Shown piece by piece: positions 2,529 to 24,712 of a stretch of 64,000 bases of DNA; position 1 is the stretch's first letter; the number at the start of each line of letters is the position of its first letter. Source of the stretch: Mucilaginibacter tundrae (GTDB lineage Bacteria > Bacteroidota > Bacteroidia > Sphingobacteriales > Sphingobacteriaceae); contig NZ_JACCBZ010000006.1 of assembly GCF_013408825.1 (NCBI RefSeq), positions 1 through 64,000 on the forward strand, read 5' to 3'. A program made the position numbers and the translations under genes. The notes under the pieces were generated by a model. It searched no databases. It worked only from the letters and a program-made list of their open reading frames with translations, and was not told the origin of the DNA.

Positions 2529-2546
2529 AAACAGAGTAGTCTGTTT
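2529..2546. promoter_or_regulatory. TetR-type operator 1 (MOSC fusion)
   Basis: AAACAGAGTAGTCTGTTT is a perfect 7+4+7 palindrome and one of seven copies in the window. On the minus strand it lies directly upstream of a TATATTTG -7-like box (2526 to 2519), so a bound repressor would sit in the promoter spacer of the MOSC fusion gene. Confidence 0.8.
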
Positions 2547-2700
2547 CATTATTATTATATTGTATTTTATTTAAAAAAAAATTCAAAAAATGAGATCGCC
2601 TGAAAAAAACCTTTGCAGGATCAAATATTTTTTTCACTTTTAACTTTCTCGTTCTGTGGTTTGTACACATGTTTTCATATTTTGGTCAATAGTACAAAGG

Positions 2701-2718
2701 AAACAGACTTGTCTGTTT
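2701..2718. promoter_or_regulatory. TetR-type operator 2 (tetR-A autoregulation)
   Basis: AAACAGACTTGTCTGTTT is a perfect palindrome ending 25 bases before the tetR-A start codon. Its central CTTG lies 20 bases before the TAACTTTG box at 2732-2739 and could serve as the -33 element. Binding would block this promoter, as expected for autorepression. Confidence 0.8.
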
Positions 2719-2731
2719 GATTTTTTTATTT

Positions 2732-2739
2732 TAACTTTG
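2732..2739 (+). promoter_or_regulatory. -7 box of tetR-A
   Basis: TAACTTTG matches the Bacteroidota -7 consensus TAnnTTTG and ends only four bases before the ATG at 2744. A transcript from it would start at or next to the ATG, which means a leaderless mRNA. Confidence 0.55.
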
Positions 2740-2743
2740 TCTT

Positions 2744-3295
2744 ATGCGTAAAGAGAGAAAGAATGCTATCCGTGACAGAATCATTGACACCGCCGGCCGC
2801 TTATTCTATAAGCAAGGTTATGTCAATACCGGAATTAATCAAATCATTGAAGAATCCGGAGTAGTCAAATCATCTCTATATGCCAGCTTCCGCTCCAAGG
2901 AAGAAATATTAATGGAATACCTGATTACGGTTGGAGAGGCAACCGATGAATCAATGCTTGCAGCCGCGATGAAGCATAAGGATCCCAAAAAACAAGTTCT
3001 TGCCATTTTCGACCAGCTAATAAAAATCGTTGAAACTGATGATTATTATGGTTGCACTTTCCTGAATGTCATATCGGAGATTCCCAAAGACAATCAAGTT
3101 GTTACCGAGCAAATTAAGAAACAAAAGAACAGTTTGCGTAGCCTTTTTGCCCGTCTCCTTGAACCCATTGGAAAAGAAGATTTAGCAAATGAGATTTACA
3201 CTTTATTTGATGGTGCGATGATTGCCAATAAAGTTCATGGCGAATTATGGCCTGTAACCAGCGCAAGAAAGACAGTGGAACGATTGCTACAATAA
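2744..3295 (+). CDS. TetR/AcrR-family regulator A
   Basis: A 183-aa repressor of the TetR family. Residues 8-55 form the DNA-binding domain (IIDTAGRLFYKQGY, TGINQIIEESGV, recognition helix SSLYASFRSKEE). The remainder is a TetR_C-like ligand and dimer domain with a Cys in DYYGCTFLN and the closing stretch YTLFDGAMIANKVH. It is a close paralog of TetR-B (11564-12103): the recognition helices share SSLY..FR.KE, and both ligand domains carry YGC.FLN and LF.GA.IANKVH. Both genes carry the same operator in front of them, so they probably bind the same sites. The ligand is unknown. The SoxR-like YGC motif could sense a reactive compound, but this is a guess. Confidence 0.9.
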   Translation: MRKERKNAIRDRIIDTAGRLFYKQGYVNTGINQIIEESGVVKSSLYASFRSKEEILMEYLITVGEATDESMLAAAMKHKDPKKQVLAIFDQLIKIVETDDYYGCTFLNVISEIPKDNQVVTEQIKKQKNSLRSLFARLLEPIGKEDLANEIYTLFDGAMIANKVHGELWPVTSARKTVERLLQ

Positions 3296-3402
3296 AACTC
3301 CTTCACGGCTTGTTAATATTTATTATAAATATTAAGACCTATTACCTCCTTTCTTTAATCAGCCTCTGGATGCGGGTTCGAAAATTTCACCCTTAATATG
3401 TG

Positions 3403-3999
3403 TTAACACAGGTTCGAAGGCCTGAACTTCCTGAGGAAGGTATTCATTATTTTTGATGCCTTTTCCGGCAATTCGAAATTGAACAAAAAGCGTTGCTCAT
3501 ATTCATTCTGAAAGTCATCCATAGCATGTAAACAAAACTGCATCACAATTTTTCCGTTCCTGCATTCTCTCGGAACATAAACCCCTTCTACCACGAAATC
3601 GCAGTCGATGGTTGTATTACGTAAATGATTGCCGGTTTCCTTTACCTTCATCTGTTTGCCATGATGTTTTAAACCATAATATAGTGGTTCATAAGGAAAG
3701 CTCACATTGTGGGCCTCATGGTCATTGAGTTTGAATTTGGTTTGCGCAACAAATACTAAATTATCAGGATCATCACTTTTCAAATAAGCCGAAAGCTCAG
3801 CGGAAAACCTGGGCTTAATTTTTTCACGCCACATATATCTTTGCCAGTCAGTCATGCGCTGTTGGTTTTCCTGCACCGCTCTTTGTGAACTGAGTGCTTT
3901 ATATAGTAAAATGGCGTTAATAATATAAACGAATACAGTCAGCCAGGAGGAAATTGCTCCCCAATCAAGCGCATTATTTTTTATTTGGAGTAACATCAT
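3403..3999 (-). CDS. Membrane-anchored protein of unknown function
   Basis: Not recognised. The 198-aa product has one clear membrane helix near the N-terminus (about residues 17-37, SWLTVFVYIINAILLYKAL), then a polar stretch with QRYMWREKIKPRF, and a beta-rich soluble part likely facing the cytoplasm. It starts 10 bases after the stop of the sigma-factor gene (4010-4576) and is probably cotranscribed with it. It has no zinc-finger anti-sigma motif, so calling it an anti-sigma factor would be speculation. Confidence 0.6.
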   Translation of the reverse strand: MMLLQIKNNALDWGAISSWLTVFVYIINAILLYKALSSQRAVQENQQRMTDWQRYMWREKIKPRFSAELSAYLKSDDPDNLVFVAQTKFKLNDHEAHNVSFPYEPLYYGLKHHGKQMKVKETGNHLRNTTIDCDFVVEGVYVPRECRNGKIVMQFCLHAMDDFQNEYEQRFLFNFELPEKASKIMNTFLRKFRPSNLC

Positions 4000-4009
4000 A
4001 TTTAATATT

Positions 4010-4647: not shown

Positions 4648-5418
4648 TTAAATGCCCTTAATTTCACCTCCGTCAATCCGGATAGCGGTACCGATCAGCC
4701 ATTTTGCGCCTGGTGATAACATATAGGCTATCAAATCAGCCACTTCTTCCGGTTTTCCATACCGACCAATATGGGCCTCCTGAAGGAACTGTTGTTTCGC
4801 TTCCTCCATGGAAAGATTATTAGCTTTTGACCATTTTTCGAGAAATCCTATTCGGCGGTTACTCATTACAGGGCCGGGTAGAACAGTATTAACCTGCACC
4901 CCGTCTATGATGCCCTGTTCGGCAAATGCCTTGGATAATGCGCAAATTGCCGCATTAATGGTGGCTACCGCAGCAAACCCAGGTTTAGGACTTTCCGCCG
5001 AATTCCCTGAGATAAAAACTATAGAGCCATTGGATTCTTTTAAAAATGGCCAGGCTTTTATCGCCAGTCGGCGTGCGCCATGCAGTTTCATTTCTGCACC
5101 ATCGTTCCATTGCTCATCGGTCATATCAAATAAGTGAATTTGAGGAACTGCTCCTGCAACATTAACAAGCGCATCGATTCTTCCAAATTTTTCAGTCGTT
5201 TGGCTGATCACCTGATCGACCGATTCCACCAATCGAAGGTCGGCGGGAATCAGCAATGTTTCGGTGCCAATGGCGTTAATTTCCGCCGCGGTCTTTTCCA
5301 GTTCATTTCCTTGACGAGCCACAAGCACGATGCCGGTAAATTCTTTGGCTAATCGGATGGCGGTAGCTCTTCCGATTCCGGCACTAGCGCCGGTTACAAT
5401 TGCAATTTTCGTTTTCAT
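4648..5418 (-). CDS. Short-chain dehydrogenase-like protein lacking the catalytic Tyr and Lys
   Basis: A 256-aa Rossmann-fold protein of the SDR family. The cofactor motif TGASAGIG (residues 9-16), NVAG (86-89) and the C-terminal substrate loop (VLPGPVMSNRR) are all present. The active-site strand ISGNS aligns with the usual ISS, but the following YxxxK is replaced: Val151 stands where Tyr should be and Asn155 where Lys should be. Normal SDR chemistry is therefore unlikely, and a binding or regulatory role or a different reaction is possible. It is the last gene of the egtB operon, 17 bases after the TMEM175-like gene start, and transcription ends before 4647. Confidence 0.8.
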   Translation of the reverse strand: MKTKIAIVTGASAGIGRATAIRLAKEFTGIVLVARQGNELEKTAAEINAIGTETLLIPADLRLVESVDQVISQTTEKFGRIDALVNVAGAVPQIHLFDMTDEQWNDGAEMKLHGARRLAIKAWPFLKESNGSIVFISGNSAESPKPGFAAVATINAAICALSKAFAEQGIIDGVQVNTVLPGPVMSNRRIGFLEKWSKANNLSMEEAKQQFLQEAHIGRYGKPEEVADLIAYMLSPGAKWLIGTAIRIDGGEIKGI

Positions 5419-5435: not shown

Positions 5436-6119
5436 TTAAAGTTCTTCAGGTAGCATTTCATCGGGTTTTAATTTGGGGACTTCGGGGCGGGTATACATGA
5501 TCAGGCAAAGAACAATTAACCCGAAGCTTATATAAGGGAACCAAAATGCAATGACCACAGCCGAAATAAACGCTCCCAAAGTGATAAACGAGCGTAGGTG
5601 CAACAGATACCTAGCTCTCGCTGGAACAGCTCTTCCCATGTCGTCACATAAAGTTTCCCATATCAGCCATAAATAGGTAAGGTTTACCAAAACGAAGACA
5701 AAAGCATATAAGGCCACCGGCACGGAAGCGAATTGCGTATCTGCCAGCCATTTCGTTAAAAAAGGAATGAAGGATACAGAAAACAAGTGCGCAAAGTTCG
5801 CCCACATCAATTTCAACTTTGCCGATTGGGCATAACGCATTAGAAAGTGGTGGTTGATCCACACAATAGCTATGAATAGGTAACTTACCCCATAACTAAG
5901 CCATGTTGGCCACAAGATAAAAAGCGCGTGAAAAGTCGGGGATTCAGGCCTTTTTAATTCCAGGATCATAATCGTAATGATGATGGCAAATACCCCATCA
6001 GAAAAGGAATATATACGTTCCGGTGTGCCATTATCCGGCATCATTCCCATGGCCATTTTCTTTTGCGTATCCATATGGCTATGCATCGCCATACCCGTTT
6101 TTTTGTCTTCTTTTTTCAT
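5436..6119 (-). CDS. TMEM175-like (DUF1211) membrane protein
   Basis: A 227-aa integral membrane protein with six predicted helices. The family signature R-x3-F-S-D-G is at residues 35-42 (RIYSFSDG), at the start of the first helix. Bacterial TMEM175 proteins are potassium-selective channels built as tetramers. The 30 residues before the signature are unusually rich in Met and His (MAMHSHMDTQKKMAMGMM), which could bind copper or another soft metal. The start at 6119 was chosen over the longer frame at 6164 because it clears the end of egtD by 11 bases and the extra 15 residues look non-native. It is cotranscribed with egtD. A role in ergothioneine biology is not established. Confidence 0.8.
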   Translation of the reverse strand: MKKEDKKTGMAMHSHMDTQKKMAMGMMPDNGTPERIYSFSDGVFAIIITIMILELKRPESPTFHALFILWPTWLSYGVSYLFIAIVWINHHFLMRYAQSAKLKLMWANFAHLFSVSFIPFLTKWLADTQFASVPVALYAFVFVLVNLTYLWLIWETLCDDMGRAVPARARYLLHLRSFITLGAFISAVVIAFWFPYISFGLIVLCLIMYTRPEVPKLKPDEMLPEEL

Positions 6120-6130
6120 AATAAAAGAAA

Positions 6131-7141
6131 TTAAAGGACTTGCCAAATGGTGTCGACGAACCATTTCTTTTGATCATAGAGCATTTTTATCGGCTTAAAG
6201 GACGCCTGCTTAGCCAGGCAGGTAATTTGCTCTGGGGTATACTTTTGTGAAACCTCCATAAAAATCGACTCGTTCTTTTTAAAATGAATGGTTTTAAAGC
6301 CCCGCTTTGTATTTATTTCAACGGATTGATCTTCCAGGCTGATCAGGTAACTTTTACAACTTCCGGTTTCAGGATCATATACCGGGTAATGTTCGAATTG
6401 ATTAGTATCGAAATTTGCATTAAGTTCCCTGTTTATTCTCTGAAGAAGATTTAAATTAAAAGCGCTCGTAATTCCCGCTTTGTCATTATAAGCTGCAAGG
6501 ATAGTTGCAGGATGTTTTTTTAAATCCAGTCCAATAATGGCAATATCGCCCTGGTTTAAATTTTGGCGCAGTTCCTGGCAAAAAGCAATTGCCTCAGCAG
6601 GTAGCATATTGCCCAGGTTTGAGCCTAAAAAAAGAACAACCTTTCTATTGCTTGATAAGTCCTTTGCTTTTCCAAGCATTTCAAAATAATCTCCGTTCAG
6701 TCCTTCAACATTAATTCCGGGTACAGTTACCGGTAATTCCAGGTGCAGATAGTCAATAATATTAGCGGAAATGTCTATGGGTCTGTAGGTGAAATCCGCA
6801 TTGATGTCAACAAGATATTTCAGTAAATAATTCGATTTTGTACAATCCCCAGCGCCCAGCTCGATCAGATCAAAGGAGGTACTTTGTCGTAAAATAATGT
6901 CCGCCAGGTCCTTTGTGCGCTCCCGGAATATTTCCAACTCACAATTGAACGGATAATATTCTTCACAGTCCATAATTTCCTGAAAAAGACTGTCTCCGGC
7001 GCAATCATAAAAATATTTTGATTGCAAAAATTTTGGAGATGATGACAGCCCTTCAATCACATCCTTGCAAAAGGTTACTTCTTCTTTTTCAGGAGTTGAT
7101 ATTGCTATGATTTTTTCGATATTGAAGTTGCTTGTAGTCAT
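6131..7141 (-). CDS. egtD: L-histidine N(alpha)-methyltransferase EgtD
   Basis: EgtD adds three methyl groups from S-adenosylmethionine to histidine, giving hercynine (trimethylhistidine), the first step of ergothioneine synthesis. The 336-aa length fits the family. Diagnostic features are the EYYPxxxE-type motif (residues 61-70), the SAM-binding loop ELGAGDCTKS (94-103), FLGSNLGN in the middle and the late GLDLKK. The gene sits between a MFS transporter and a TMEM175-like gene, two genes downstream of egtB on the same strand, which strongly supports the assignment. It acts in the cytoplasm. Confidence 0.93.
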   Translation of the reverse strand: MTTSNFNIEKIIAISTPEKEEVTFCKDVIEGLSSSPKFLQSKYFYDCAGDSLFQEIMDCEEYYPFNCELEIFRERTKDLADIILRQSTSFDLIELGAGDCTKSNYLLKYLVDINADFTYRPIDISANIIDYLHLELPVTVPGINVEGLNGDYFEMLGKAKDLSSNRKVVLFLGSNLGNMLPAEAIAFCQELRQNLNQGDIAIIGLDLKKHPATILAAYNDKAGITSAFNLNLLQRINRELNANFDTNQFEHYPVYDPETGSCKSYLISLEDQSVEINTKRGFKTIHFKKNESIFMEVSQKYTPEQITCLAKQASFKPIKMLYDQKKWFVDTIWQVL

Positions 7142-7199: not shown

Positions 7200-8390
7200 T
7201 TATTTGGGATGGTTGATGTTGACCGGCTTTAGCGTAAATGAAATAATCAGCATGATTATTGATACACCAGCAAGGGCCAGCATCGGGCTGGTAAAATTCC
7301 CTGTATAATCACGAAGGGCACCCAGGGCTATCGGGCCTATAGCAGCTATCACATACCCAATGGTTAATATAAAAGCAGTCCAAGCGTTTGTTTCATGATG
7401 GGTATTTGTATTGTCCAACGGAAGCGTCATTGCTAAGGTGAATGTCCCTCCTAGTCCAATGGCCAAAATGCCGATGATGATAAACGGTGAAAATCCGGGA
7501 CAAAAAGCGATCAATAATAGTCCGGATAGACTGATCAAACAACCGGTGACCAGCCAAAGTCGCCGATCCAATGACTTACTAAGCGATCCAAATACCGGGC
7601 TTGACAGCATGAAAAAAAACGTAAAGCAGCCTAAAATATAACCTGCATTACTGGTGCTTAACCCGTGTTCAATAAACAATGGTGCTGTCCAGGCAACCAG
7701 TGAATAAAAAATGAGGTTAACACAGGCAAAAAATAAGGCAATTCGCCATGCCATTCCATTTTTCCATGGTATTTCTATCGTTGCCTTTTTTATCTGGTCA
7801 ACGGTTTTTTTCTTTTCTTTAGCAGCAACAAGCATCCAGGCCACCAAGCCTATTACACCGGCAATTGTCCAAACACCAGTTGCAAAGCGCCAGCTGTCGG
7901 TAGCTTTTAAAATTGGTGCGGTACTGAGCGCGGAAATGGTGCTTCCCATTGATAGTGAAGTAGTGTAAATACCCATTACCAATGCTGCTTTTGTCGAAAA
8001 ATTTGCCTTTACAAACCCGGATAACAATGTACCTGCAATGGCGATGCCAGTTCCAACCCCGGCAGTGCAAATTAACAGTGTGGCTACAGTAAGGGAAAGC
8101 GCCCTTGCTAATGTAGACGCAGCAAGCAATAACAAAGCACCAATAATCAGCTTATCCCTGCCAAGTTTATTAGCCAGCCAAGGCGTAGGCAGCGCTAACA
8201 AGCCCATTAACAGATCCGGAATGGAAATTAATGAACCGGTGGTGAAATGAGATAGCCCAAAATAATGCTGGATCGCAGGTATACTTGGACCCATGGATAC
8301 GAGCGAGGGCCTTAATGCCAGCGCAACTAATATAATGCCGGCAATTTCCAGCCCATTTGAGGTTTTAATGTTTTCTTTTAATGTTTCCAT
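7200..8390 (-). CDS. MFS transporter, CynX/NimT-like
   Basis: A 396-aa protein with twelve predicted membrane helices of the major facilitator superfamily. The opening LRPSLVSMGPSIPAIQ and the loop PWLANKLGRDKLI resemble the CynX/NimT group (cyanate and 2-nitroimidazole transporters). The start at 8390 (METLKEN) is preferred to the upstream start at 8435 because the latter would overlap egtB. It lies 11 bases after egtB and 58 before egtD, so the likely cargo is ergothioneine, hercynine or a precursor. That cargo is inferred from context only. Confidence 0.85.
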   Translation of the reverse strand: METLKENIKTSNGLEIAGIILVALALRPSLVSMGPSIPAIQHYFGLSHFTTGSLISIPDLLMGLLALPTPWLANKLGRDKLIIGALLLLAASTLARALSLTVATLLICTAGVGTGIAIAGTLLSGFVKANFSTKAALVMGIYTTSLSMGSTISALSTAPILKATDSWRFATGVWTIAGVIGLVAWMLVAAKEKKKTVDQIKKATIEIPWKNGMAWRIALFFACVNLIFYSLVAWTAPLFIEHGLSTSNAGYILGCFTFFFMLSSPVFGSLSKSLDRRLWLVTGCLISLSGLLLIAFCPGFSPFIIIGILAIGLGGTFTLAMTLPLDNTNTHHETNAWTAFILTIGYVIAAIGPIALGALRDYTGNFTSPMLALAGVSIIMLIISFTLKPVNINHPK

Positions 8391-8401
8391 GGGTTTAAAT
8401 T

Positions 8402-9574
8402 TTATTTGGCCAATCGTATCCCGGCAAACTGCCATCGTACATTCGTTTGAAAAAAATTCCTATAGGTAATCCTGCTATGGTTAATAGATGTGACTTCTGA
8501 GGCTCCCCGAAGCACCTGTTGATTCACCATGAATTTTCCATTGTATTCTCCAAGCGCTCCCGGAGCTTGTCGGTATCCAGGATATGGTACATAGGCGCTG
8601 GCAGTCCATTCCCATCGGTGGCCCCAGTTAAAGTCTGCGGCCGCAACTTCCCATTCAAACTCTGTCGGTAATCGCATTCCTTTCCAGTTTGCGTATGCAT
8701 AAGCTTCAAAATAACTCACATGGCAAACCGGCTCATCCGGATCGATTGGTAACATACCCCGGAAAGTAAAGTTATGCCATTGACCATTTATAGTGTGCCA
8801 ATAAAGGGGGGCTAAAATGTGGTTCTTCTTTACCCAATCCCAACCCTCGGCATGCCAGTACCTGAAATCCTGGTATCCGCCATTTAGGATGAATTCGAGG
8901 TATTCCGCATTGCTTACCAGGTTGGAACAGATCGCATATGAATTTAAGTAAATTTTGTGCCTGCCTAATTCATTATCCCAGGAGAAACTGTTGCCGTTAT
9001 AGCCAACCTCATAGTTCCCTTCAGGAATAACCAGGATAAAATTTTCAGTTTTTTTAGAAGGAATAGAATAATCGATATCTTTCCGGTATTCGGGAAAAAG
9101 CGGGTTATGTCCAAGGATATATTTAATATCGGTAAATAATAATTCCTGGTGTTGCTGTTCATGATTAAGCCCAAGTATAACGAGGTCTATTACCTCCTGA
9201 GTTAGATCACTCCGTTCTAAAAAATGGGACATCACCACGTCCACGTATTTTCGGTATTTGTAAATGCTATTTACTGTGGGGCGGCTCAAATTTCCGCGGT
9301 CGGTACGAATTACGCGGCTGCCAATGGATTCATAATAGCTATTGAACACGAAATTAAATTCATGATCATAGGGTTCGTATCCAGCTACATGTGGTATCAA
9401 TAAGAAAGTTTCAAAAAACCAGGTCGTATGTCCCAGATGCCATTTTGGGGGACTCACATCAGAGATAGGCTGCACCACATAGTCCTCAATTTCCAATGGC
9501 TTGCAAATTTTTTCCGTAGCGGCCCTGACCTGTGTAAAAGCCGATTTTAAGTCAATATGAGTTGTTGTTTGCAT
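8402..9574 (-). CDS. egtB: Hercynine oxygenase / sulfoxide synthase EgtB
   Basis: EgtB is a non-heme iron enzyme that joins hercynine to cysteine or gamma-glutamylcysteine with O2, forming the sulfoxide intermediate of ergothioneine. The 390-aa protein has an N-terminal DinB-like domain with the iron ligands in WHLGHTTWFFE (His46 or His49) and NHEQQHQE (His138, His142), and a C-terminal formylglycine-synthase-like domain (RLPTEFEWE, HRWEWTASAY, RGAS, RNFF). It begins a five-gene operon with egtD. No egtA, egtC or egtE is seen nearby, so the sulfur donor and the final lyase must be elsewhere or cysteine is used directly. Confidence 0.93.
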   Translation of the reverse strand: MQTTTHIDLKSAFTQVRAATEKICKPLEIEDYVVQPISDVSPPKWHLGHTTWFFETFLLIPHVAGYEPYDHEFNFVFNSYYESIGSRVIRTDRGNLSRPTVNSIYKYRKYVDVVMSHFLERSDLTQEVIDLVILGLNHEQQHQELLFTDIKYILGHNPLFPEYRKDIDYSIPSKKTENFILVIPEGNYEVGYNGNSFSWDNELGRHKIYLNSYAICSNLVSNAEYLEFILNGGYQDFRYWHAEGWDWVKKNHILAPLYWHTINGQWHNFTFRGMLPIDPDEPVCHVSYFEAYAYANWKGMRLPTEFEWEVAAADFNWGHRWEWTASAYVPYPGYRQAPGALGEYNGKFMVNQQVLRGASEVTSINHSRITYRNFFQTNVRWQFAGIRLAK

Positions 9575-9669: not shown

Positions 9670-10539
9670 TTATTCCGGAAGCTTGCTTAAGAACTCTACG
9701 ATTTCTTCGCCAATCTCCTGAACATGCGTTTCTAATGCGAAATGGCCCGTATCATAAAACTTAACCGTTGCCTTAGGGAGATCACGCTTGAAAGCTTCTG
9801 CACCAGGAGGAAGGAAAAATGGGTCTTTATCGCCCCATACCGCTAGTACTGCGGGCTGACTTTTCCTAAAGTATTCCTGGAAAGTAGGATAAAGCGCCAC
9901 GTTGCTGGCGTAACTTTTAAACAGGTCCAGCTGAATTTCAACATTGCCGGGACGATCAAGGAAATATTGGTCCAGCGTATAAGACTCCGGGGCGACAAGG
10001 GTTGGATCAGCAACTCCGGTAAAATATTGCCACTGTGTCGTTTGGGCTGTTGACATTCCACGCAGGTTATTGCGATTTTCTTCGCTTGGATCTGCCCAAT
10101 ATTTCTGGAATGGGTTCCAGCCTTCGCTGAGGCCCTCTACATACGCATTTCCATTTTGTGAGATGATGCCTGTTACTTTTTCCGGGTTGGCGACTGCAAG
10201 GCGGAAGCCTACAGGAGCACCATAATCAAATACATACAGGGCAAAACGTTTTAATTCCAGCTGATCAATCAGCCCTTGTATATATTTGGTGATATGGTCA
10301 AATGTATACTCAAACTCTGTATTTTTTGGCGCATCCGAATAACCAAAACCTGGAAGGTCGGGTGCGATTACATGATACTTTTCATTCAATAATGGAATTA
10401 AATTACGATACATGTGGGATGAGGTAGGAAATCCATGCAAAAGCAGGATAACCGGTCCATCCTTCGGTCCTGACTCCCGGTAAAAAATTTCAAGATCCTC
10501 AACCTTCGCTTTTAGGTACTTTACAATTTGTGTTTTCAT
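9670..10539 (-). CDS. Alpha/beta hydrolase A (Asp-nucleophile type)
   Basis: A 289-aa alpha/beta hydrolase with the oxyanion motif LLLHGFPTSS (His35-Gly36) and an aspartate nucleophile in VFDYG (Asp105). The acid is probably Asp239 in WGDKD and the base is His266 in YDTGHFALE. An Asp nucleophile is typical of haloalkane dehalogenases and epoxide hydrolases, not of esterases. It is about the same length as, and clearly paralogous to, hydrolases B (10619) and C (12225). An operator copy at 10582-10599 is 43 bases upstream. The substrate is unknown, and epoxide hydrolase or dehalogenase activity is an inference from the nucleophile. Confidence 0.85.
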   Translation of the reverse strand: MKTQIVKYLKAKVEDLEIFYRESGPKDGPVILLLHGFPTSSHMYRNLIPLLNEKYHVIAPDLPGFGYSDAPKNTEFEYTFDHITKYIQGLIDQLELKRFALYVFDYGAPVGFRLAVANPEKVTGIISQNGNAYVEGLSEGWNPFQKYWADPSEENRNNLRGMSTAQTTQWQYFTGVADPTLVAPESYTLDQYFLDRPGNVEIQLDLFKSYASNVALYPTFQEYFRKSQPAVLAVWGDKDPFFLPPGAEAFKRDLPKATVKFYDTGHFALETHVQEIGEEIVEFLSKLPE

Positions 10540-10581: not shown

Positions 10582-10599
10582 AAACAGACAACTCTGTAT
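10582..10599. promoter_or_regulatory. TetR-type operator 3 (hydrolase A)
   Basis: AAACAGACAACTCTGTAT matches the seven-site consensus with a single mismatch in the right arm. It lies between the stop of hydrolase B and the start of hydrolase A on the minus strand. No clear -7 box was found beside it. Confidence 0.65.
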
Positions 10600-10618: not shown

Positions 10619-11476
10619 TTATCCCAGGAAGTTTATGATCTCTTCAGCAATTTCCCCATGGCATTCTTCTAAAGCCAAATGGCTGGTATCATAGACATGA
10701 AGCTCCGCTGTTGGAACGTCGGCCTTGATTGCCTCTGCAGCCGATAACGGGAAAAAAACATCATTTTTACCCCATACCAACAACATTCTTGGCTGGGTTT
10801 CTTTCAACCATTTTTGCCATTCAGGATATAAAGCAACATTGCTGGCATAATCGTGTAACAGGTCTAATTGGAGTTCTTCCTGGCCGGGACGGCTTAAATG
10901 ATGCAGTGCATTCATATAATGGTCCGGGTTAATTTTGCCGGGATCTTTAGCACCTTCCAAGAAAAAGAGTTTGATACCGTCAAGCGTTAAAAGCGGTTTC
11001 ACCAATTTTTCAGTTTCTTCATTCCTGTTTGTAAGAAAAGGTTCCGCATTCGCCATTGCAGGGCCAAGACCTTGTTCATAGGCGTTTGAATTTTGCAGTA
11101 TTATATTCTTAAACAAATTTTTCCTTCGGGTAGCGATACGGAACGTTACCGGACCTCCGTAACCAATAGCGTATACATTAGGATTTTGGAGACCAAGTTG
11201 ATCGATGAATTTCTCAACGGTTTTTGAAATGTTATCAAACGTATATTCATAGTCTTTTTGATCAGGCACGTCACTTTGTCCAAATCCGGGATAATCAGGT
11301 GCAATTAGGTAATACTTATCCTGAAGGTCTTCCATTAATTCCTGGAACGCGCTGGAGGAATTAGGAACACCATTTAAAAAAATGATTGGTTGTTTTAAAG
11401 GATCACCTGCTTCCCTGTAAAAGATATTGATACCTTCCACATTTAGAGTTTTAAAACTCACTGATTGCTTTTTCAT
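10619..11476 (-). CDS. Alpha/beta hydrolase B, nucleophile replaced by Gly
   Basis: A 285-aa paralog of hydrolases A and C that aligns with them without gaps over the catalytic positions. The base (His266 in YDTSHLALE) and the acid (Asp239 in WGKND) are kept. The nucleophile position is Gly105 (AIGYGGP in place of VFDYGAP), and the oxyanion HG is NG (Asn35-Gly36). The Gly codon is GGT, one base from GAT (Asp). It is therefore probably inactive as a hydrolase and may be a ligand-binding or regulatory protein, or use another mechanism. It follows tetR-B by 87 bases on the same strand and may share its transcript. Confidence 0.8.
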   Translation of the reverse strand: MKKQSVSFKTLNVEGINIFYREAGDPLKQPIIFLNGVPNSSSAFQELMEDLQDKYYLIAPDYPGFGQSDVPDQKDYEYTFDNISKTVEKFIDQLGLQNPNVYAIGYGGPVTFRIATRRKNLFKNIILQNSNAYEQGLGPAMANAEPFLTNRNEETEKLVKPLLTLDGIKLFFLEGAKDPGKINPDHYMNALHHLSRPGQEELQLDLLHDYASNVALYPEWQKWLKETQPRMLLVWGKNDVFFPLSAAEAIKADVPTAELHVYDTSHLALEECHGEIAEEIINFLG

Positions 11477-11563: not shown

Positions 11564-12103
11564 TTAAATTATTTTACGAATTACATTCTTAGCCGTAACG
11601 ATAGGCCAATGGTCATTATGAACTTTATTGGCAATTAAGGCGCCCTCAAATAAAGTATAGATTTCATCTGCCAAGCCTGCTCTATGAAGAGGCGCCAAAA
11701 TCTCCTCGAAAAGTGCACGAACCGTATCTTTCTGTTTTTTTACGATCTCCTTGATTTTGACCGCATCCTCGGGTAACTCATAGACCATATTTAAAAAGTG
11801 ACAACCGTAGAATTCATTTTGCTGAACTAACCGTTCCAAATACTCAAAGATGGACAGGATCTTATCCTTAGGGATGGTGTACTTATCGGCAGCTTCCTTT
11901 AATCCGTTTAAAGTATCCTTTCCTGTCACTTCTAAATAGACTATCAGCAAATCCTCCTTTGCACGAAAATGCTGATAAAGGGATGACTTCGAGATATCAG
12001 CTTCCTCAATAATTTGATTAATGCCGGTATTACTATAACCCTGTTTATAAAACAGTCGAATAGACGTATTAACGATTGCATCCCTGATTGATCTTTTTTT
12101 CAT
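11564..12103 (-). CDS. TetR/AcrR-family regulator B
   Basis: A 179-aa TetR repressor closely related to TetR-A (2744-3295). The helix-turn-helix lies at residues 6-50 (IRLFYKQGYSNTGINQIIEE, SSLYQHFRAKED), the ligand domain has FYGCHFLN at about residue 98, and LFEGALIANKVH is near the end. The operator at 12132-12149 lies 28 bases upstream, and the -7-like box TACTTTTG ends four bases before the ATG. Autoregulation and cross-regulation with TetR-A are inferred from the shared operator. Hydrolase B lies directly downstream. Confidence 0.9.
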   Translation of the reverse strand: MKKRSIRDAIVNTSIRLFYKQGYSNTGINQIIEEADISKSSLYQHFRAKEDLLIVYLEVTGKDTLNGLKEAADKYTIPKDKILSIFEYLERLVQQNEFYGCHFLNMVYELPEDAVKIKEIVKKQKDTVRALFEEILAPLHRAGLADEIYTLFEGALIANKVHNDHWPIVTAKNVIRKII

Positions 12104-12107
12104 TATT

Positions 12108-12138
12108 CAAAAGTATGTAATAATTACAATAAAACAGA
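12108..12138 (-). promoter_or_regulatory. Promoter of tetR-B overlapping the operator
   Basis: TACTTTTG (12115 to 12108) is preceded at exactly 19 bases by TCTG (12138 to 12135), which is part of the operator half-site. This is the same geometry as in the dehalogenase promoter. The -7 box ends four bases from the ATG, so the mRNA may be leaderless. Confidence 0.55.
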
Positions 12139-12149
12139 CAAGTCTGTTT
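12132..12149. promoter_or_regulatory. TetR-type operator 4 (tetR-B)
   Basis: AAACAGACAAGTCTGTTT is a perfect palindrome, extended to 24 bp by flanking ATA/TAT. In the gene's direction the centre reads CTTG, identical to the tetR-A operator. It also lies downstream of hydrolase C, whose stop codon is at 12225. Confidence 0.8.
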
Positions 12150-12224: not shown

Positions 12225-13094
12225 TTATTTTGGAAGTGTTTTTAGGAACTTTACGATTTCAAGACATATCTCATCCATTTTAGTCTCTAATGCGAAATGC
12301 CCGGCATTAAAAAACTTTATAATCGCATCAGGCAAATCACGTTTAAAAGCGTTTGCACCCGCAGGTATGAAGTAAGGATCGTTTTCACCCCATACTGCTA
12401 AAAGCGGTGGCTGAAAAGTCCGGAAATATTCCTGAAAAGATGGGTATAATTCGACATTGGATGCATAGTCCTTAAACAGGTCCAGCTGGGCTTCTTCGTT
12501 ATCAGGACGGTCCATAAAAATCTGGTCAAGGGTGTAGGCTTCCGGTGCCACTAAAGTTTTGTCTTCCGCGCCTGTAAAGTACTGCCATTGGATCGCGGCT
12601 GCATTTGACGGAGACCTTAAGTTATTGCGGTTTTCTTCGGAAGGATCAGCCCAATATTTTTTAACAATCGCCCATCCATCACTTAAACCTTCCTCATAAG
12701 CATTTCCATTTTGTGAAATAATCCCGGTTATTTTACGCGGATTTGCTGCCGCTAAACGATAGCCTACCGGTGCTCCATAATCAAAAACCTGAATAGCGAA
12801 ACGTTTAAGATCCAGGTGATCGATCAGAGCCTGAACATACCTAGTCAGGTTATCGAATGTATAATCAAAGGATTTATAATGAGGCGCGTCGGAAAAACCA
12901 TACCCTATAAGGTCCGGTGCTATCACATGGTTTTGATCACTAAGCCGGTTTATCAGGTTCCGGTACATGTGAGAAGATGTGGGGTAACCATGTAATAACA
13001 AAATGGTTGGCGCATCTTTTGAACCCGCCTCTCTATAAAAGACATTATAACCTTCCAATTTTACGGTCTGGTATTTTATTTTTGTCAAACTCAT
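12225..13094 (-). CDS. Alpha/beta hydrolase C (Asp-nucleophile type)
   Basis: A 289-aa alpha/beta hydrolase closely similar to hydrolase A. It has HG at residues 35-36 (LLLHGYPTSS), nucleophile Asp105 in VFDYGAPVG, acid Asp239 in WGENDP and His266 in FNAGHFALE. It is the third gene after the LLM monooxygenase and flavin reductase, with only 34 bases to the latter. This suggests that it hydrolyses a product of the monooxygenase or belongs to the same detoxification route. Dehalogenase or epoxide-hydrolase chemistry is inferred from the Asp nucleophile. Confidence 0.85.
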   Translation of the reverse strand: MSLTKIKYQTVKLEGYNVFYREAGSKDAPTILLLHGYPTSSHMYRNLINRLSDQNHVIAPDLIGYGFSDAPHYKSFDYTFDNLTRYVQALIDHLDLKRFAIQVFDYGAPVGYRLAAANPRKITGIISQNGNAYEEGLSDGWAIVKKYWADPSEENRNNLRSPSNAAAIQWQYFTGAEDKTLVAPEAYTLDQIFMDRPDNEEAQLDLFKDYASNVELYPSFQEYFRTFQPPLLAVWGENDPYFIPAGANAFKRDLPDAIIKFFNAGHFALETKMDEICLEIVKFLKTLPK

Positions 13095-13128: not shown

Positions 13129-13674
13129 TTATGTGGTAACTACTGGACCGCCCATTGAATAAAACTTAGATTTAAACCATAATAAAGGACTCCCCTGGTC
13201 ACAAATCCTTATACTTTCCACTTTTCCTATAACGATGGCGTGGTCATGACGCTCCAGCGATTCTTCAAGGGTACAGTCAATCGATGCGAGGGCATCCTTT
13301 AACACCTGGGTGCCAGTAGGCAATCCAATCCATTCCGCGCCCTCATAACGGGCTTCACCCTTTATCCCGCCAAATCCGGTAAAACGGCTGGCTATGGCAT
13401 CTTCGCCTTCGCGCATGAAATTAACCCCAAACCGGTGGGTTTTTGATAGTACCGCCCAGGAAGAGGAGGTCAGGCTGATACAAAGAATTATACGTGGCGG
13501 CTCAGCCGAAAATGAGGAAACAGAGGTCGCGACAAAGCCTGTCCTGTTATATTCATCACCAACGGTAATAATGGAAACCGCGCCGGCGAGTTCCCTCATT
13601 GCCTGGCGAAATTGCTGAACCGGAACGTCTGTAGTGTTCGGTGTCGTGTTTTCTGTAGGTGCTGCGCTATTCAT
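13129..13674 (-). CDS. Flavin reductase (FMN reductase-like partner)
   Basis: A 181-aa flavin reductase of the HpaC/DmoB-like family. It has the FMN-binding region TGFVATSVSSFSAEPPRIILCIS (about residues 45-67) and a C-terminal LLWFKSKFYSMGG. Such proteins use NAD(P)H to make free reduced FMN for a monooxygenase partner. The neighbouring LLM-class gene (18 bases upstream) is the obvious partner, forming a two-component monooxygenase. It is likely transcribed from the operator-controlled promoter at 15070-15122. Confidence 0.85.
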   Translation of the reverse strand: MNSAAPTENTTPNTTDVPVQQFRQAMRELAGAVSIITVGDEYNRTGFVATSVSSFSAEPPRIILCISLTSSSWAVLSKTHRFGVNFMREGEDAIASRFTGFGGIKGEARYEGAEWIGLPTGTQVLKDALASIDCTLEESLERHDHAIVIGKVESIRICDQGSPLLWFKSKFYSMGGPVVTT

Positions 13675-13692: not shown

Positions 13693-15024
13693 TTATTTTG
13701 AAAATTGATTGACTGGCCTAGGAAGATTTAAACGGTCGCGTAATGTTCCCGGAGCGTATTGCGATGGAACCAAGTTCCTGCGGCGTAACTCAGGGATAAC
13801 ATCCCGCATGAAATTCATCCACTCCTCCGGAATTGTTGGAAACATCAGGTTAAACCCGTCGGCTGCTTTTGCTGTGAACCATTCCTCCAATTGATCTGCA
13901 ATTTGTTTCGGTGTTCCCTTTATGGTCGGTGCAGTGCCGACATTAGCCACTAATTTGGCAACTTCCCTAATCGTCAGCCCTTCACTCTGGTATTGTTTCA
14001 CTTTTACCAGGTTGGTGCGCTGGCCGTTAAAGCTGGCTTCATCTGGCAGGGCCGGAATAGGTCCGTCGATCGGGTATCCCGAAAGATCCATTCCTACCCA
14101 ATATGAAACCAGGTCAATTCCTACCTGTTCAGGGACAAGTTTTTCGAGTAAAGCCTCCTTTTCCGCAGCTTCGTCCATTGACGACGCGACAATAGGTAGA
14201 ATGCCCGGTAAAATCTTTAAAGCAGAAGCAGGCCTGCCAAATTTTTCCAGCCTGCGGTTAAAATCTTCCCGATATTCCTGACCTTCTTTAATACTGCGCA
14301 ACAGCGCAAAGTTCAGGTCAGCATGTTTTGCTGCTAAATTCCGGCCGTCATCTGATCCACCGGCTTGAACAATAACAGGGTACCCCTGTACCGGGCGAGG
14401 TACATTAAGCGGGCCCCTTACCTTAAAGAATTCGCCCTCGAAGTTTAGGTGATGTACTTTATCCTTGTCTGCAAAAATTCCGCTGGCCTTATCCATCAGG
14501 ATGGCCTCATCCTCCCAACTATCCCATAATTCTTTAGCAAGCGTAATATATTCGGCGGCGCGGGAATAACGGTTGCTGTGCTCAATGCTTGCATCCCTGC
14601 CGAAATTCCTGGCTTCTTCGTCCATACCGGATGTTACCACATTCCAGCCCGATCTTCCATGGCTAAGATGATCCAACGATGCGAAGCTACGGGCAAGATT
14701 ATAAGGTAATGAATAAGAGGCCGAAACGGTAGAAATCAGTCCAATATTTTTAGTTACAGCAGATAGTGCTGCCAAAAGTGTTATCGGCTCTAAACGGGCA
14801 TTCGCATAGCTTGGGATATTGCTTGGAAAAGAATCCCATATACCTACGTGATCAGCTAAAAATATGGCATCAATGCAAGCGTCTTCAGCAGCCAAAACAA
14901 GTTTTTTATAATACTCCAGGTCAAATATTTCTTTCCCGGCTGCAGACGGATATCGCCAAGAAACACGGTTATCTCCCTGCGGATTAAAAAAGAAAGCGGT
15001 TAGAATCAAATGGTTGTTTTCCAT
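13693..15024 (-). CDS. LLM-class FMN-dependent monooxygenase (NtaA/DmoA-like)
   Basis: A 443-aa luciferase-like flavin-dependent monooxygenase. The N-terminus (LTAFFFNPQGDNRVSWRYP), the GRSGWNVVTS motif and the conserved QAGGSDDGR and PHxPEEW-like end match the nitrilotriacetate/DszA/DmoA group, which oxidises small amines, sulfides or sulfonates with reduced FMN. The start at 15024 is chosen because the -7-like box TAGCTTTG (15077 to 15070) lies between it and the longer frame start at 15072. Together with the flavin reductase at 13129 it forms a two-component system. The substrate is unknown. Confidence 0.85.
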   Translation of the reverse strand: MENNHLILTAFFFNPQGDNRVSWRYPSAAGKEIFDLEYYKKLVLAAEDACIDAIFLADHVGIWDSFPSNIPSYANARLEPITLLAALSAVTKNIGLISTVSASYSLPYNLARSFASLDHLSHGRSGWNVVTSGMDEEARNFGRDASIEHSNRYSRAAEYITLAKELWDSWEDEAILMDKASGIFADKDKVHHLNFEGEFFKVRGPLNVPRPVQGYPVIVQAGGSDDGRNLAAKHADLNFALLRSIKEGQEYREDFNRRLEKFGRPASALKILPGILPIVASSMDEAAEKEALLEKLVPEQVGIDLVSYWVGMDLSGYPIDGPIPALPDEASFNGQRTNLVKVKQYQSEGLTIREVAKLVANVGTAPTIKGTPKQIADQLEEWFTAKAADGFNLMFPTIPEEWMNFMRDVIPELRRRNLVPSQYAPGTLRDRLNLPRPVNQFSK

Positions 15025-15069
15025 GAGAGGGTTGTTTAGTTTTAAAATATGATTGATGTAATAACTATT

Positions 15070-15122
15070 CAAAGCTAATTAAAAATTATAAAAACAGAGT
15101 TGTCTGTTTTTATAATTTTTAA
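15070..15122. promoter_or_regulatory. Promoter and TetR-type operator 5 with 44-bp palindrome (LLM operon)
   Basis: The core AAACAGAGTTGTCTGTTT is at 15092-15109. The palindrome extends perfectly to 20-bp arms from 15079 to 15122 around a 4-base GTTG centre. A minus-strand TAGCTTTG -7-like box (15077 to 15070) is directly downstream, with TCTG 17 bases before it. The transcript would start near 15064 and give a leader of about 40 bases before the ATG at 15024. Confidence 0.8.
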
Positions 15123-18492: not shown

Positions 18493-18542
18493 GCCTAAAT
18501 AAAAATCATTGCTGGTACATTGGTTTTATGGATATTTGAGTA

Positions 18543-21309: not shown

Positions 21310-22122
21310 TTATTCTTGACGCTGGTCATCCAAAAGTCTTTGATTGTTCTTAACAGGCGATTTAAGCAAATACCATACTTGGTGTTGCTCATTGCTTTTA
21401 AATTCATCCAAACCATATTTAATCTCATGTGGTTTGGTATATCCCCAAGTGCCGAATAACCGATCCCACAAAGAAAACACATCACCATAATGTGAGTCTG
21501 TCAAAGGCTGCTCTGTTGAATGGTGAATTTTATGCCAGCATGGTGTCGCAAAAATTAAGCAGGCCACACGTTCGACATTTTGCGGTAACCTGACATTGCT
21601 ATGCTGCATAATTAATAAAGGAATGGCTATTGTTCCATAGATCACAAAAGCGGAAACAGGAAGGCCTATTACGATAGCTCCCAATGATTGATAGATACAT
21701 TGGGAAACAATTACATCAACAGGGTGAAAACGCAAGGATGACGAAGAGTTTAAATGGAAATCAGAGTGATGTACGCGGTGAAAACGCCATAATAATGGGA
21801 TCCTATGTTGAAGGTTATGGGTGAGGTAGCTTCCGAAATCAAATAGCAATATGCCAATAATTATTTTTGCATATTTCGGAATGTTCACCAGGTTAAGCAA
21901 TCCTATTTGTTTATGGTTTGCCGTTACTATGGCCATAACTACAATGGCACCCATAAGGGCGTTTACAACAAAGGAAATAACGCTTGTACCATAATTACGC
22001 TTATAATGTTGTGCTGGCCTATCCGGCTTTTCCAGGTATGGGAAAATATTTTCTATGCTATACATAAGCACCAACATGAAAAGCAAGATGATTGGCTGAA
22101 TGTTGCCTAAGAATTCTATCAT
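21310..22122 (-). CDS. Sterol desaturase / fatty acid hydroxylase superfamily protein
   Basis: A 270-aa integral membrane di-iron oxygenase. The three histidine clusters are visible as HNLQHR (about residue 105), HRVHH (118-122) and HKIHH (about 202) plus a late DSHYGD. Members hydroxylate or desaturate lipids, sterols or carotenoids. Four or five membrane helices are predicted. It starts 8 bases after the glycosyltransferase gene and is in the same operon, so the pair may oxidise and then glycosylate one hydrophobic compound. This is an inference, and a carotenoid route would need other genes not seen here. Confidence 0.85.
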   Translation of the reverse strand: MIEFLGNIQPIILLFMLVLMYSIENIFPYLEKPDRPAQHYKRNYGTSVISFVVNALMGAIVVMAIVTANHKQIGLLNLVNIPKYAKIIIGILLFDFGSYLTHNLQHRIPLLWRFHRVHHSDFHLNSSSSLRFHPVDVIVSQCIYQSLGAIVIGLPVSAFVIYGTIAIPLLIMQHSNVRLPQNVERVACLIFATPCWHKIHHSTEQPLTDSHYGDVFSLWDRLFGTWGYTKPHEIKYGLDEFKSNEQHQVWYLLKSPVKNNQRLLDDQRQE

Positions 22123-22130
22123 AAATATTT

Positions 22131-23483
22131 TTATTTATAGGTGATGGATTGAGGTGTAAAGTCAGATTGTCCGCTTTTATTAAGTTCACGGTTTAGGATG
22201 AGTTGTTGAACATACTTCATGCAAAGCCCAAGCGAATCGAATTTATTAAGGCTGGCATTAACTTTAGCAATACCCAAACGGTATTTATCATTATTCAAGA
22301 CGGTATTTATAGCCAACTCAATTGCCTGGGATGTAGGATATTCGGTTTTAAGGTCAATGCCACATTCAAAATAAGCTATCCGGGCACAAACTTCATTTTT
22401 CCCTTCGTGAAGTCCAGCCGCGACCATCGGAACATTATGCCGGATACTTTGTAATGCGCCGCCATAACCTCCATTGGTGATGTAAAGTGAAGCGAAAGGC
22501 AAAACCTGGTCAAAATTAATGTGATCTTCAATAATCACATTGGGCTGGTCAAATCTTTTCCGAAGTTCTGTGGTTTGATTTCCCCCCGTCGTTGCAATCA
22601 CCAGGATATTTGTTCCGGCAAGCGCTTCTAATGTCGGGACAAGTAATTTGTTTACATCCCGCTCAATGGTACCTTGAGTGAGAAGTACCACTTGGGTATA
22701 ATGTTCAAGACGCGGATCGGTCCAGGTATTTTTAACCTCATTATTAGCATAAGGCATCAGGGCACCGATAAAACGAACATTTTTACCGAGGTCACTTCTT
22801 TTATATTCAAATTGAGGGCAACCAATTTGCAAATATAAATCCGCCGATTTGATCATTTGATTATATATAGAAGTTCGAGTGTGCGGAACATCGTAAAAGT
22901 TGAGCAAGTTGTCATAGAGGTCTACCGGATCTTTATAGGTGACCATTTCCTGGCTGTATAATGTGGCATAATATTTACGAGTTGTACCGTTTAATGCCGG
23001 GGGTAAACCTGACCGATAAGGTCCTGTATCTACCGAGTTTTCCAACAGAGGTAAAACTCCTATGGTCAAAACTGGTATATTAAGTACAGGTTTAATTAAA
23101 GGTATTGCAGAAAACATGCTGTCCGTAATAAGGAGATCAAAATCGAAAGATTGAAGGATTTCCCTAATATCTTCAAGGTATTCACCTGCGCGACCCGCAA
23201 AAAAATGAGTTTGATATTGTATGCTTCGTTGAACCGGGTCCTTGCTTTGTATTTCAGGAAACAGGCTGGTTATATTTTTACCATTAACTTCAAGTGCGCG
23301 TTTAAATGGATAATGAAAAATATCAAGTTTTTGAAGCTTGTCGGCGTATGCAATGGAATTGTACCAGCGTATTTCGCACCCTTGCTTTTGCAAATATTTA
23401 GCCAAGCCTGTCAATGGATTAAAATGACCGTCGACAGGCACACAGGCGAATAGTATCTTTTTTCCTTCTAAGAAAGTGTTCAT
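22131..23483 (-). CDS. UDP-glycosyltransferase, MGT-like (GT1 family)
   Basis: A 450-aa GT-B fold enzyme. The N-terminal domain has ACVPVDGHFNPLTGLAKYL (conserved His20-like base region). The C-terminal domain has LLTQGTIERD, then LPFASLYITNGGYGGALQSIRHNVPMVAAGLHEGKNE, the nucleotide-sugar binding signature (usually HGG). Here the usual His is Asn (TNGGYGG). It transfers a sugar from a nucleotide donor to a small acceptor, as do macrolide- and flavonoid-modifying enzymes. A consensus operator at 23512-23529 lies directly upstream, tying it to the same regulon as the dehalogenase and monooxygenase. Confidence 0.85.
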   Translation of the reverse strand: MNTFLEGKKILFACVPVDGHFNPLTGLAKYLQKQGCEIRWYNSIAYADKLQKLDIFHYPFKRALEVNGKNITSLFPEIQSKDPVQRSIQYQTHFFAGRAGEYLEDIREILQSFDFDLLITDSMFSAIPLIKPVLNIPVLTIGVLPLLENSVDTGPYRSGLPPALNGTTRKYYATLYSQEMVTYKDPVDLYDNLLNFYDVPHTRTSIYNQMIKSADLYLQIGCPQFEYKRSDLGKNVRFIGALMPYANNEVKNTWTDPRLEHYTQVVLLTQGTIERDVNKLLVPTLEALAGTNILVIATTGGNQTTELRKRFDQPNVIIEDHINFDQVLPFASLYITNGGYGGALQSIRHNVPMVAAGLHEGKNEVCARIAYFECGIDLKTEYPTSQAIELAINTVLNNDKYRLGIAKVNASLNKFDSLGLCMKYVQQLILNRELNKSGQSDFTPQSITYK

Positions 23484-23511
23484 AGATTATAATTAAAAAA
23501 TACAATTTGTA

Positions 23512-23529
23512 AAACAAACTACTCTGTTT
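23512..23529. promoter_or_regulatory. TetR-type operator 6 (glycosyltransferase operon)
   Basis: AAACAAACTACTCTGTTT matches the consensus with one mismatch in the left arm. Flanking bases extend the dyad to about 15-bp arms with two mismatches. It is 29 bases upstream of the glycosyltransferase ATG. Confidence 0.7.
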
Positions 23530-23647
23530 TATAAATTGAAAATATTCTGTTTTAAAGCCTTATTAGTTTAACGATAACTACGCTTAAACTACTCCTCTTA
23601 TAAAAGTTGTAATTCGCAAAGGAATTAGCTTAGCAATAAAACGATGA

Positions 23648-23672
23648 ACGGGCTTGCACGATACAAGCCCGT
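23648..23672 (-). terminator. Hairpin terminator between dehalogenase and glycosyltransferase
   Basis: A 9-bp GC-rich stem (ACGGGCTTG and its complement) with a 7-base loop lies 59 bases after the dehalogenase stop on the minus strand. A short T-run follows on either strand, so it may work both ways. Confidence 0.6.
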
Positions 23673-23730
23673 CTTTTTCGTCCGGCCTTATTAAAATTTA
23701 TCGCAATACCTGTAATCCCTTACTAAAAGG

Positions 23731-24630
23731 CTATTGACGTTCCTTGATCCAATCAGCCACGGCTTGCCCAATCTCGTGTGGAGAGTCTTCCTGGACGAAA
23801 TGGATGCCTTTAACAGTTATCTCTTTCAAGTTCGGCCATGCGCGGACTGCACTAAGAAGTGCTTCGCTCGTTAAAATGGCTCCGGGTTCAACTTTGAAGA
23901 AAAGCTTAGGAATGTCGCTGATCGCAAGCCAATTGGCATAAGCAGCAACCGCCTCATGAACTTCGGCGGGCTCTCCCTCAATAGGAATCTGCCGTGGCCA
24001 TGTCAAGGTAGGTCTGCGATTCTCTCCAGGCTTATTGAATGGGCGACGATATTCTGCTATTTCTTCAGCCGCTAAAGGTCGAATGATCGCTTTAGGCAGA
24101 ATTTCTTCAATGAAGAAATTTTCCTCCAAAACCATTTTTTCACCGGCATCGCCGCGCAAGGCCTCCAGTACTGGCCGCATTCCCATGCTATCCCAATGAT
24201 CCTTTCCCTGCGGACCAGTTATAGCCTCCATGAAAGCGATTCCCTTTATTGCATTACGATGCCGATTTGCCCAGTCAAAACCAAGGCCTGAACCCCAGTC
24301 ATGAAGAACAAGGGTGACGCGTTCGCGAACATCTAAAGCCTCAAGAAGCGCGTCGAGATATTGGCGATGTTCAACAAAGCTGTATGAGTTCGGCCCACTA
24401 TCGGGAAGCTTATCCGAGTCACCCATTCCGATTAGGTCGGGTGCTATGCATCGGCCTAAGCCTTCAAGGTATGGAATAATGTTGCGCCATAGAAATGAGG
24501 AGGTTGGATTACCGTGTAACAGCACGATGGGGTCGCCTTGACCTACTTCGATGTAAGCCATCTCATGGCCTAAAATCTTAAGCCGCTTCTTCTCGTAGGG
24601 AAGCGTAGCTGAGATAGATTTTGCTTTCAT
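23731..24630 (-). CDS. dhaA-like: Haloalkane dehalogenase (EC 3.8.1.5)
   Basis: A 299-aa alpha/beta hydrolase with the complete catalytic set of haloalkane dehalogenase subfamily II: Asn41 in HGNPTSSFLWR, nucleophile Asp111 and halide-binding Trp112 in HDWGSGLG, Glu135 in FMEA, and base His277 in GIHFVQEDSP. Such enzymes hydrolyse carbon-halogen bonds of alkyl halides to alcohols. The coding sequence is richer in G and C (near 50% in places) than neighbouring genes, which hints at acquisition from another lineage. An operator-controlled promoter lies at 24664-24712. Its place beside the monooxygenase and hydrolases suggests xenobiotic handling, though natural halogenated substrates are also possible. 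Confidence 0.92.
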   Translation of the reverse strand: MKAKSISATLPYEKKRLKILGHEMAYIEVGQGDPIVLLHGNPTSSFLWRNIIPYLEGLGRCIAPDLIGMGDSDKLPDSGPNSYSFVEHRQYLDALLEALDVRERVTLVLHDWGSGLGFDWANRHRNAIKGIAFMEAITGPQGKDHWDSMGMRPVLEALRGDAGEKMVLEENFFIEEILPKAIIRPLAAEEIAEYRRPFNKPGENRRPTLTWPRQIPIEGEPAEVHEAVAAYANWLAISDIPKLFFKVEPGAILTSEALLSAVRAWPNLKEITVKGIHFVQEDSPHEIGQAVADWIKERQ

Positions 24631-24663
24631 ATTTGTTATGTTTTACTTGTTAACTAAACACTG

Positions 24664-24712
24664 CAAATATATGACTAAATAAAATAAAAACAGAGTTGTC
24701 TGTTTTTATTTT
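24664..24712. promoter_or_regulatory. Dehalogenase promoter with operator 7 (32-bp palindrome)
   Basis: AAACAGAGTTGTCTGTTT is at 24688-24705, extended to perfect 14-bp arms (24681-24712). On the minus strand TATATTTG (24671 to 24664) is preceded at exactly 19 bases by TCTG of the operator arm (24694 to 24691). The repressor would therefore cover the -33 element. The leader to the ATG at 24630 would be about 27 bases. Confidence 0.75.

Follow-up and report, generated by a model that had tools for sequence, protein, structure and literature searches.

Several described TetR-type systems resemble the locus presented here, which lies in a 64,000-nt stretch of the Mucilaginibacter tundrae genome (contig NZ_JACCBZ010000006.1, positions 1–64,000; hereafter the window) and consists of seven copies of an 18-bp palindrome, a candidate operator, standing before two paralogous TetR-type repressor genes (TetR-A and TetR-B) and a set of enzyme genes. 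In Bacillus subtilis the two TetR-type repressors LmrA and QdoR (YxaF) control one regulon according to the title of Hirooka 2007 (reference list of PMC8481877), and QdoR is described as repressing its own gene and the detoxifying QdoI. In Pseudomonas aeruginosa (CifR-Cif) and Burkholderia cenocepacia (Cfl2), a TetR gene is reported to lie by an epoxide hydrolase gene, with epoxides derepressing Cif and inducing Cfl2 (PMC8244358). NemR of Escherichia coli is described as controlling electrophile detoxification (PMC7464077), and AltR of Pantoea ananatis is summarized as a NemR-related TetR protein with an inverted-repeat operator, several sites per cluster and a Cys100 that is essential for the thiosulfinate response (PMC13178969). 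A remoter parallel is DitR, a TetR protein reported to be released by diamide and to have two sensing cysteines; an Acidovorax tetR study, which concerns pqi genes, was set aside. MhqR is a further parallel, and a literature search found no account of it with DoxX.

The seven palindromes are probably the operators of TetR-A and TetR-B as sister repressors in an electrophile- or oxidant-responsive regulon, and the TetR clade to which both belong is likely to keep the operator core ACAGACNNGTCTGT across Bacteroidota; the two statements are graded jointly as the best explanation of the sequence data. The sites, which carry no strand, are as follows, with genes designated by their first position where needed.

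2529..2546: both arms perfect, between the MOSC fusion gene (-) and TetR-A (+)
2701..2718: both arms perfect, 5' of TetR-A, -7 box TAACTTTG at 31 nt from the site start
10582..10599: one arm mismatch, 5' of hydrolase 9670 and the Egt run
12132..12149: perfect, 5' of TetR-B, -7 box TACTTTTG at 34 nt from the site start
15092..15109: perfect, 5' of the LLM monooxygenase genes, -7 box TAGCTTTG at 32 nt
23512..23529: one arm mismatch, 5' of the glycosyltransferase/hydroxylase pair, no TANNTTTG box found
24688..24705: perfect, 5' of DhaA, -7 box TATATTTG at 34 nt

A motif scan of the window finds all seven sites where the initial annotation had placed them, five without mismatch and two (10582 and 23512) with one. 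Its claim that every copy lies in a promoter region also holds, with 7/7 sites outside the open reading frames (ORFs) taken as genes, non-ORF DNA making up 11.8% of positions 1–28,000. At up to three mismatches the window contains 14 matches, against a mean of 4.77 (standard deviation 2.26, largest 11) in 100 dinucleotide shuffles, and a mononucleotide model predicts 0.05 exact occurrences of the 18-mer in 4.83 Mb. The genome itself (4,834,404 bases scanned, 24 contigs) contains five perfect 18-mer matches, all in this region, and three one-mismatch matches, two of which are here; the third (C4:188958) was rejected as a regulon site as it sits in the coding sequence of a 607-aa ORF. The 14-bp core ACAGASNNSTCTGT occurs exactly six times genome-wide, each time in the window. 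Allowing up to two mismatches gives 64 genomic matches, against 20 for the reversed control. Because the two-mismatch matches are widely scattered and the reversed control reaches 20, only the class of zero to one mismatch is informative, and two-mismatch matches were not accepted as regulon members. In that informative class the genome scan does not show the random placement that would speak against the motif. The seven sites look like a real operator, judged by the upstream counts, the spacing to the -7 box and the footprint in other genera given below.

The two repressors are encoded on opposite strands:

2744..3295, + strand: TetR-A repressor (domain search, identity, residue alignment)
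11564..12103, - strand: TetR-B repressor (domain search, identity, residue alignment)

Both gene products exceed the Pfam cut-off of 24 bits for the TetR_N helix-turn-helix domain (47.0 and 52.4 bits, respectively). They exhibit 48% identity to each other and have the recognition-helix residues KSSLY in common. An alignment was seeded with TetR-A, TetR-B and 27 homologues, and 45 loci were then fetched from named genomes; relatives were examined in these fetched stretches, which span at most about 20 kb around each TetR gene. Six of the 45 (L053, L055, L056, L059, L064 and L065) were left out of the first count as fragments or distant, and the motif of the initial annotation, unchanged, occurs at up to two mismatches in 32 of the 39 TetR upstream regions counted. 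The core ACAGACNNGTCTGT was refined on the same loci on which it was then counted, these being 65 related and non-independent rows (66 less one artefact row, with L064 and L065 left out). It is found within 150 bp 5' of 54/65 repressor homologues at up to one mismatch, compared with 3/387 control ORFs located more than 4 kb from any TetR gene. At up to two mismatches the figures are 63/65 and 6/387, the exceptions being L037 (five mismatches) and L097 (three). L064 and L065, the two loci furthest removed, gave no core site at up to one mismatch. The loci contain 82 exact copies of the core palindrome, compared with none of any of seven palindromes of the same composition. Relatives at only 30–38% identity, including two contigs labelled Planctomycetota, mostly have the core at up to one mismatch, and L063, L068 and L092 have it with two.

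An A-B tandem in which each gene has its own upstream operator is found at nine loci, from Chitinophaga, Pedobacter, Dyadobacter, Niastella and the genus of the window (L029 and L098 being the same locus); in other loci just one TetR type was seen. The shared site before two paralogous TetR genes and an enzyme set, as first proposed, agrees with this footprint in other genera. A broad distribution was not found: of 61 genomes of the genus, nine (own genome counted) match at E 1e-40, three of the nine (G016, G018 and G064) with distant members only, and at class level 5/395 genomes match at E 1e-50, own included, with up to eight candidates scored per genome.

In the alignment of homologues Cys101 is invariant (121/121) and Lys160 is present in 120/121, at the positions of NemR Cys106 and Lys175, and in every other column Cys is found in at most 10 of 122 rows. 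A Cys101/Lys160-type pair is also found in two other TetR proteins of the same genome. A further TetR-type gene at 26–559, past the MOSC fusion, encodes a product without this conserved pair. A third, more distant paralogue in the genome (L068 1461–2064; G000:C5:446210) is divergent from an adjoining transporter gene, read by eye as DHA2-type. Since AGATAGACTTGTCTATTT stands before it, this paralogue probably has its own variant operator and offers a natural test of operator specificity.

The consensus of the Bacteroidota -7 box is TANNTTTG. For TetR-A, TetR-B, the LLM gene and DhaA, this box starts 31–34 nt past the start of the site, so the site covers the -33 region, where a repressor operator would be expected. 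For the MOSC gene the -7 box is at 20 nt, and a search found none for hydrolase 9670 or the glycosyltransferase. Across the window and relatives, 51/120 sites have a -7 box and 69 are without one, compared with 29/319 AT-rich control windows with a box, and the spacing from site to box is 30–34 nt in 46 of 53 cases. In both TetR-A and TetR-B, 4 nt separate the end of the box from the ATG (regions 2701–2744 and 12103–12149), which suggests that their messages are leaderless. In the LLM gene (13693–15072) the TTG listed as its start falls within the -7 box, and the real start is probably the ATG near 15024, past the box.

The remaining genes of the candidate regulon are all encoded on the minus strand:

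677..2416, -: fusion of MOSC, YiiM 3-helix, FAD/NAD reductase and 2Fe-2S (domain search)
4648..5418, -: SDR, final gene of the 9670 run
5436..6164, -: TMEM175-family K+ channel
6131..7141, -: EgtD-like histidine methyltransferase, second copy (NCBIfam score, tree)
7200..8435, -: CynX/NimT-like MFS transporter (under the NCBIfam cut-off)
8402..9574, -: EgtB, second copy (TIGR03440, 527.1 bits, cut-off 360)
9670..10539, -: alpha/beta hydrolase heading the run, Asp nucleophile by alignment
10619..11476, -: alpha/beta hydrolase-fold protein, Gly for nucleophile, 3' of TetR-B
12225..13094, -: alpha/beta hydrolase, Asp nucleophile by alignment
13129..13674, -: flavin reductase
13693..15072, -: NtaA/DmoA-family LLM flavin monooxygenase (family match)
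21310..22122, -: fatty acid hydroxylase family, apparently a local member
22131..23483, -: UDPGT/MGT-like glycosyltransferase, apparently a local member
23731..24630, -: haloalkane dehalogenase DhaA, apparently a local member (NF002938, 411.9 bits, cut-off 241)

The target genes listed by the initial annotation have their sites in the places given, with one correction for the 10582 site, which serves not a single hydrolase gene but the head of six same-strand genes running from 9670 back to 4648 (hydrolase, EgtB, MFS transporter, EgtD, TMEM175 channel and SDR), which, judging by their spacing, we infer to be one transcript. The identification of 23731–24630 as a haloalkane dehalogenase is supported by its family score; hydrolases 9670, 10619 and 12225 remain below the same cut-off, at 121.1, 82.6 and 120.9 bits, respectively. 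The 10619 gene product lacks a nucleophile at the elbow, with Gly in 120/120 of the listed homologues (own included) and the His and acid kept; these homologues are named esterase or hydrolase. This loss of the nucleophile and the second EgtB/EgtD set behind 9670 had both been overlooked in the initial annotation.

Within the region, at 15845–21143, lie a gene for a response regulator, with a sigma-54 domain by Pfam, and an ORF that by eye looks like a TPR histidine kinase; no site at zero to one mismatch precedes them. By eye, the ORF at 27512–29038 resembles a large serine recombinase, which may point to a mobile element beside the regulon.

Relatives of TetR-A, of TetR-B and of hydrolases 9670 and 10619 have the site before them in other genera. 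The site also stands before LLM relatives in L022, L024 and L026, before a MOSC fusion relative in L022 (48% identity) and before an EgtB relative in L033; Pfam was run on 10 of the 32 unmatched first genes. A site before the glycosyltransferase/hydroxylase pair or DhaA is seen in the window only, with none in the relatives' fetched stretches. The proposal that the system also conjugates its substrate rested on this glycosyltransferase and is not supported by these stretches.

The EgtB product passes its family cut-off, and EgtD (6131–7141) scores 286.1 bits on TIGR03438 against a cut-off of 290.9. No EgtC- or EgtE-type family was matched in family searches of the genes of the 9670 run. EgtB is found in 56/61 genus genomes, and two copies are found in the window's genome alone; the other copy in this genome is called housekeeping here as a label only. 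In trees of 14 EgtB and 15 EgtD proteins, the window copies fall outside the group formed by the remaining copies of the genus; support for this is modest. In the EgtB tree, support is 84/80 for the fork of the window copy and 80/87 for the fork of the genus copies, which is drawn open, and the genus fork of the EgtD tree has support of 100/98. Because of its modestly supported place outside that group, we do not favour a recent origin of the window EgtB by copying of the other genus gene. Runs of hydrolase, EgtB, EgtD and SDR genes are also found behind the TetR genes of L021, L022, L023, L024 and L026.

The proposed mechanism begins with bound repressor over the -33 region, which would block RNA polymerase, as the position of the sites implies. 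An electrophile or oxidant would then inactivate both repressors, most likely through Cys101 with Lys160 as a possible partner, by analogy to the NemR Cys106-Lys175 pair. Besides both repressor genes, those for the pair of hydrolases with an Asp nucleophile, for the LLM monooxygenase and its flavin reductase, for the MOSC-reductase fusion and for an inducible second EgtB/EgtD would be released, so that the compound might be hydrolysed or oxidised and the thiol buffer raised. KefB and KefC are part of the electrophile defence of E. coli, and the TMEM175 K+ channel of the 9670 run may act in the same way. The sequence data show the sites, where they stand, their conservation and which genes they accompany. 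We infer DNA binding by both proteins, repression, cross-regulation and operon structure; the inducer class, the Cys-Lys switch and the ergothioneine output are hypothetical. Autoregulation, one half of the auto- and cross-regulation first suggested, is well supported by position and conservation, and cross-regulation by TetR-A and TetR-B is plausible from the shared site. It is a speculative and rather unlikely extension that a two-repressor thiol switch, with Cys101 locked by Lys160 and responding to electrophiles or reactive chlorine, makes ergothioneine synthesis inducible, the response comprising the second EgtB/EgtD, the K+ channel, the monooxygenase and the hydrolases, with 10619 acting on these compounds as a binder, chaperone or non-hydrolytic catalyst.

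The alternative that survives best, though it appears less probable than an electrophile- or oxidant-responsive regulon, is the reading of the initial annotation, in which the repressors sense a ligand non-covalently as in CifR (an epoxide, alkyl halide or aromatic compound) and the regulon is a catabolic or detoxification pathway for that class. It leaves EgtB/EgtD, TMEM175 and the nucleophile-less hydrolase without explanation, and the DhaA and glycosyltransferase sites are not seen in the examined stretches of relatives. A pathway for one chemical class is one option only, and the ergothioneine genes and nucleophile-less hydrolase fit electrophile or oxidant stress at least equally. It is more doubtful that one TetR protein alone is the operating repressor, the other being a heterodimer partner or a diverging duplicate. 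In the fetched stretches of L025, L028, L030, L034 and L051 an A-type gene alone was seen with the same hydrolases (the upstream stretch being short in L025 and L028), which fits a single repressor, whereas both types keep KSSLY and their own operator, and the nine tandems have a site before each gene. Natural-product resistance or biosynthesis in place of general stress is improbable; an MGT-like glycosyltransferase, a hydroxylase and an MFS transporter are in or near the regulon, yet no synthase gene is present among the genes annotated (about positions 1–27,000) and the glycosyltransferase site is not seen in the relatives' stretches. That the sites arose by chance or belong to a dispersed repeat with no regulatory role has a negligible probability, for although two-mismatch matches are scattered over the genome, this origin is contradicted by the confinement of the sites to the region, their promoter position and their footprint in other genera, and was rejected by the shuffles, the genome scan, the upstream-region controls and the same-composition palindromes.

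The regulon of TetR-A and TetR-B would supply a testable operator for a TetR clade of several Bacteroidota genera, and the same core stands 5' of a relative in the two Planctomycetota-labelled contigs. The regulon also links a repressor-type site with a second ergothioneine set, brings to light a conserved hydrolase-fold protein without a nucleophile and, if an inducer were found, could provide an inducible promoter set for soil Bacteroidota. No published description of the regulon was found at title and abstract level, most subscription literature lying outside the search, and among the papers listed by a literature search with the operator letters none was on this subject. The statement that no description was known does not extend to the type of arrangement, for which LmrA/QdoR, CifR and NemR are close precedents.

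As in LmrA/QdoR, the window appears to contain two paralogous repressors, one operator and one regulon, and structural comparison of the predicted TetR-B model gives the QdoR structure, 1sgm, as one of its best matches. LmrA/QdoR differs in being flavonoid-responsive and in its quercetin dioxygenase. The LmrA/QdoR regulon also includes the LmrB efflux, and we know of no ergothioneine or hydrolase set within it. The likeness to CifR-Cif is that of a putative TetR gene near an Asp-nucleophile alpha/beta hydrolase under its predicted operator; CifR-Cif differs in its single repressor, short operon and secreted Cif, with no EgtB or EgtD mentioned, and CifR has about 15% identity with TetR-B in a structural alignment. 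NemR has a TetR fold and a GC motif, and its Cys106 and Lys175 align with the invariant Cys101 and with Lys160. It is a single repressor with 24% identity to TetR-B, and TetR-A and TetR-B are not filed as NemR because equivalents of its Cys21 and Cys116 are absent from both. NemR binds the palindrome TAGACCGACTGGTCTA, which stands before nemR and differs from the window operator in its wider gap. AltR differs in its described operator, CAATCTAC N6 GTAGATTG, and in its target genes. From described ergothioneine biosynthesis the window differs in that its EgtB/EgtD are a second copy behind a TetR-type operator. Judged from sequence, the regulon appears conserved and real, a variant on known repressor arrangements that joins features of LmrA/QdoR and of CifR and adds ergothioneine genes to them.

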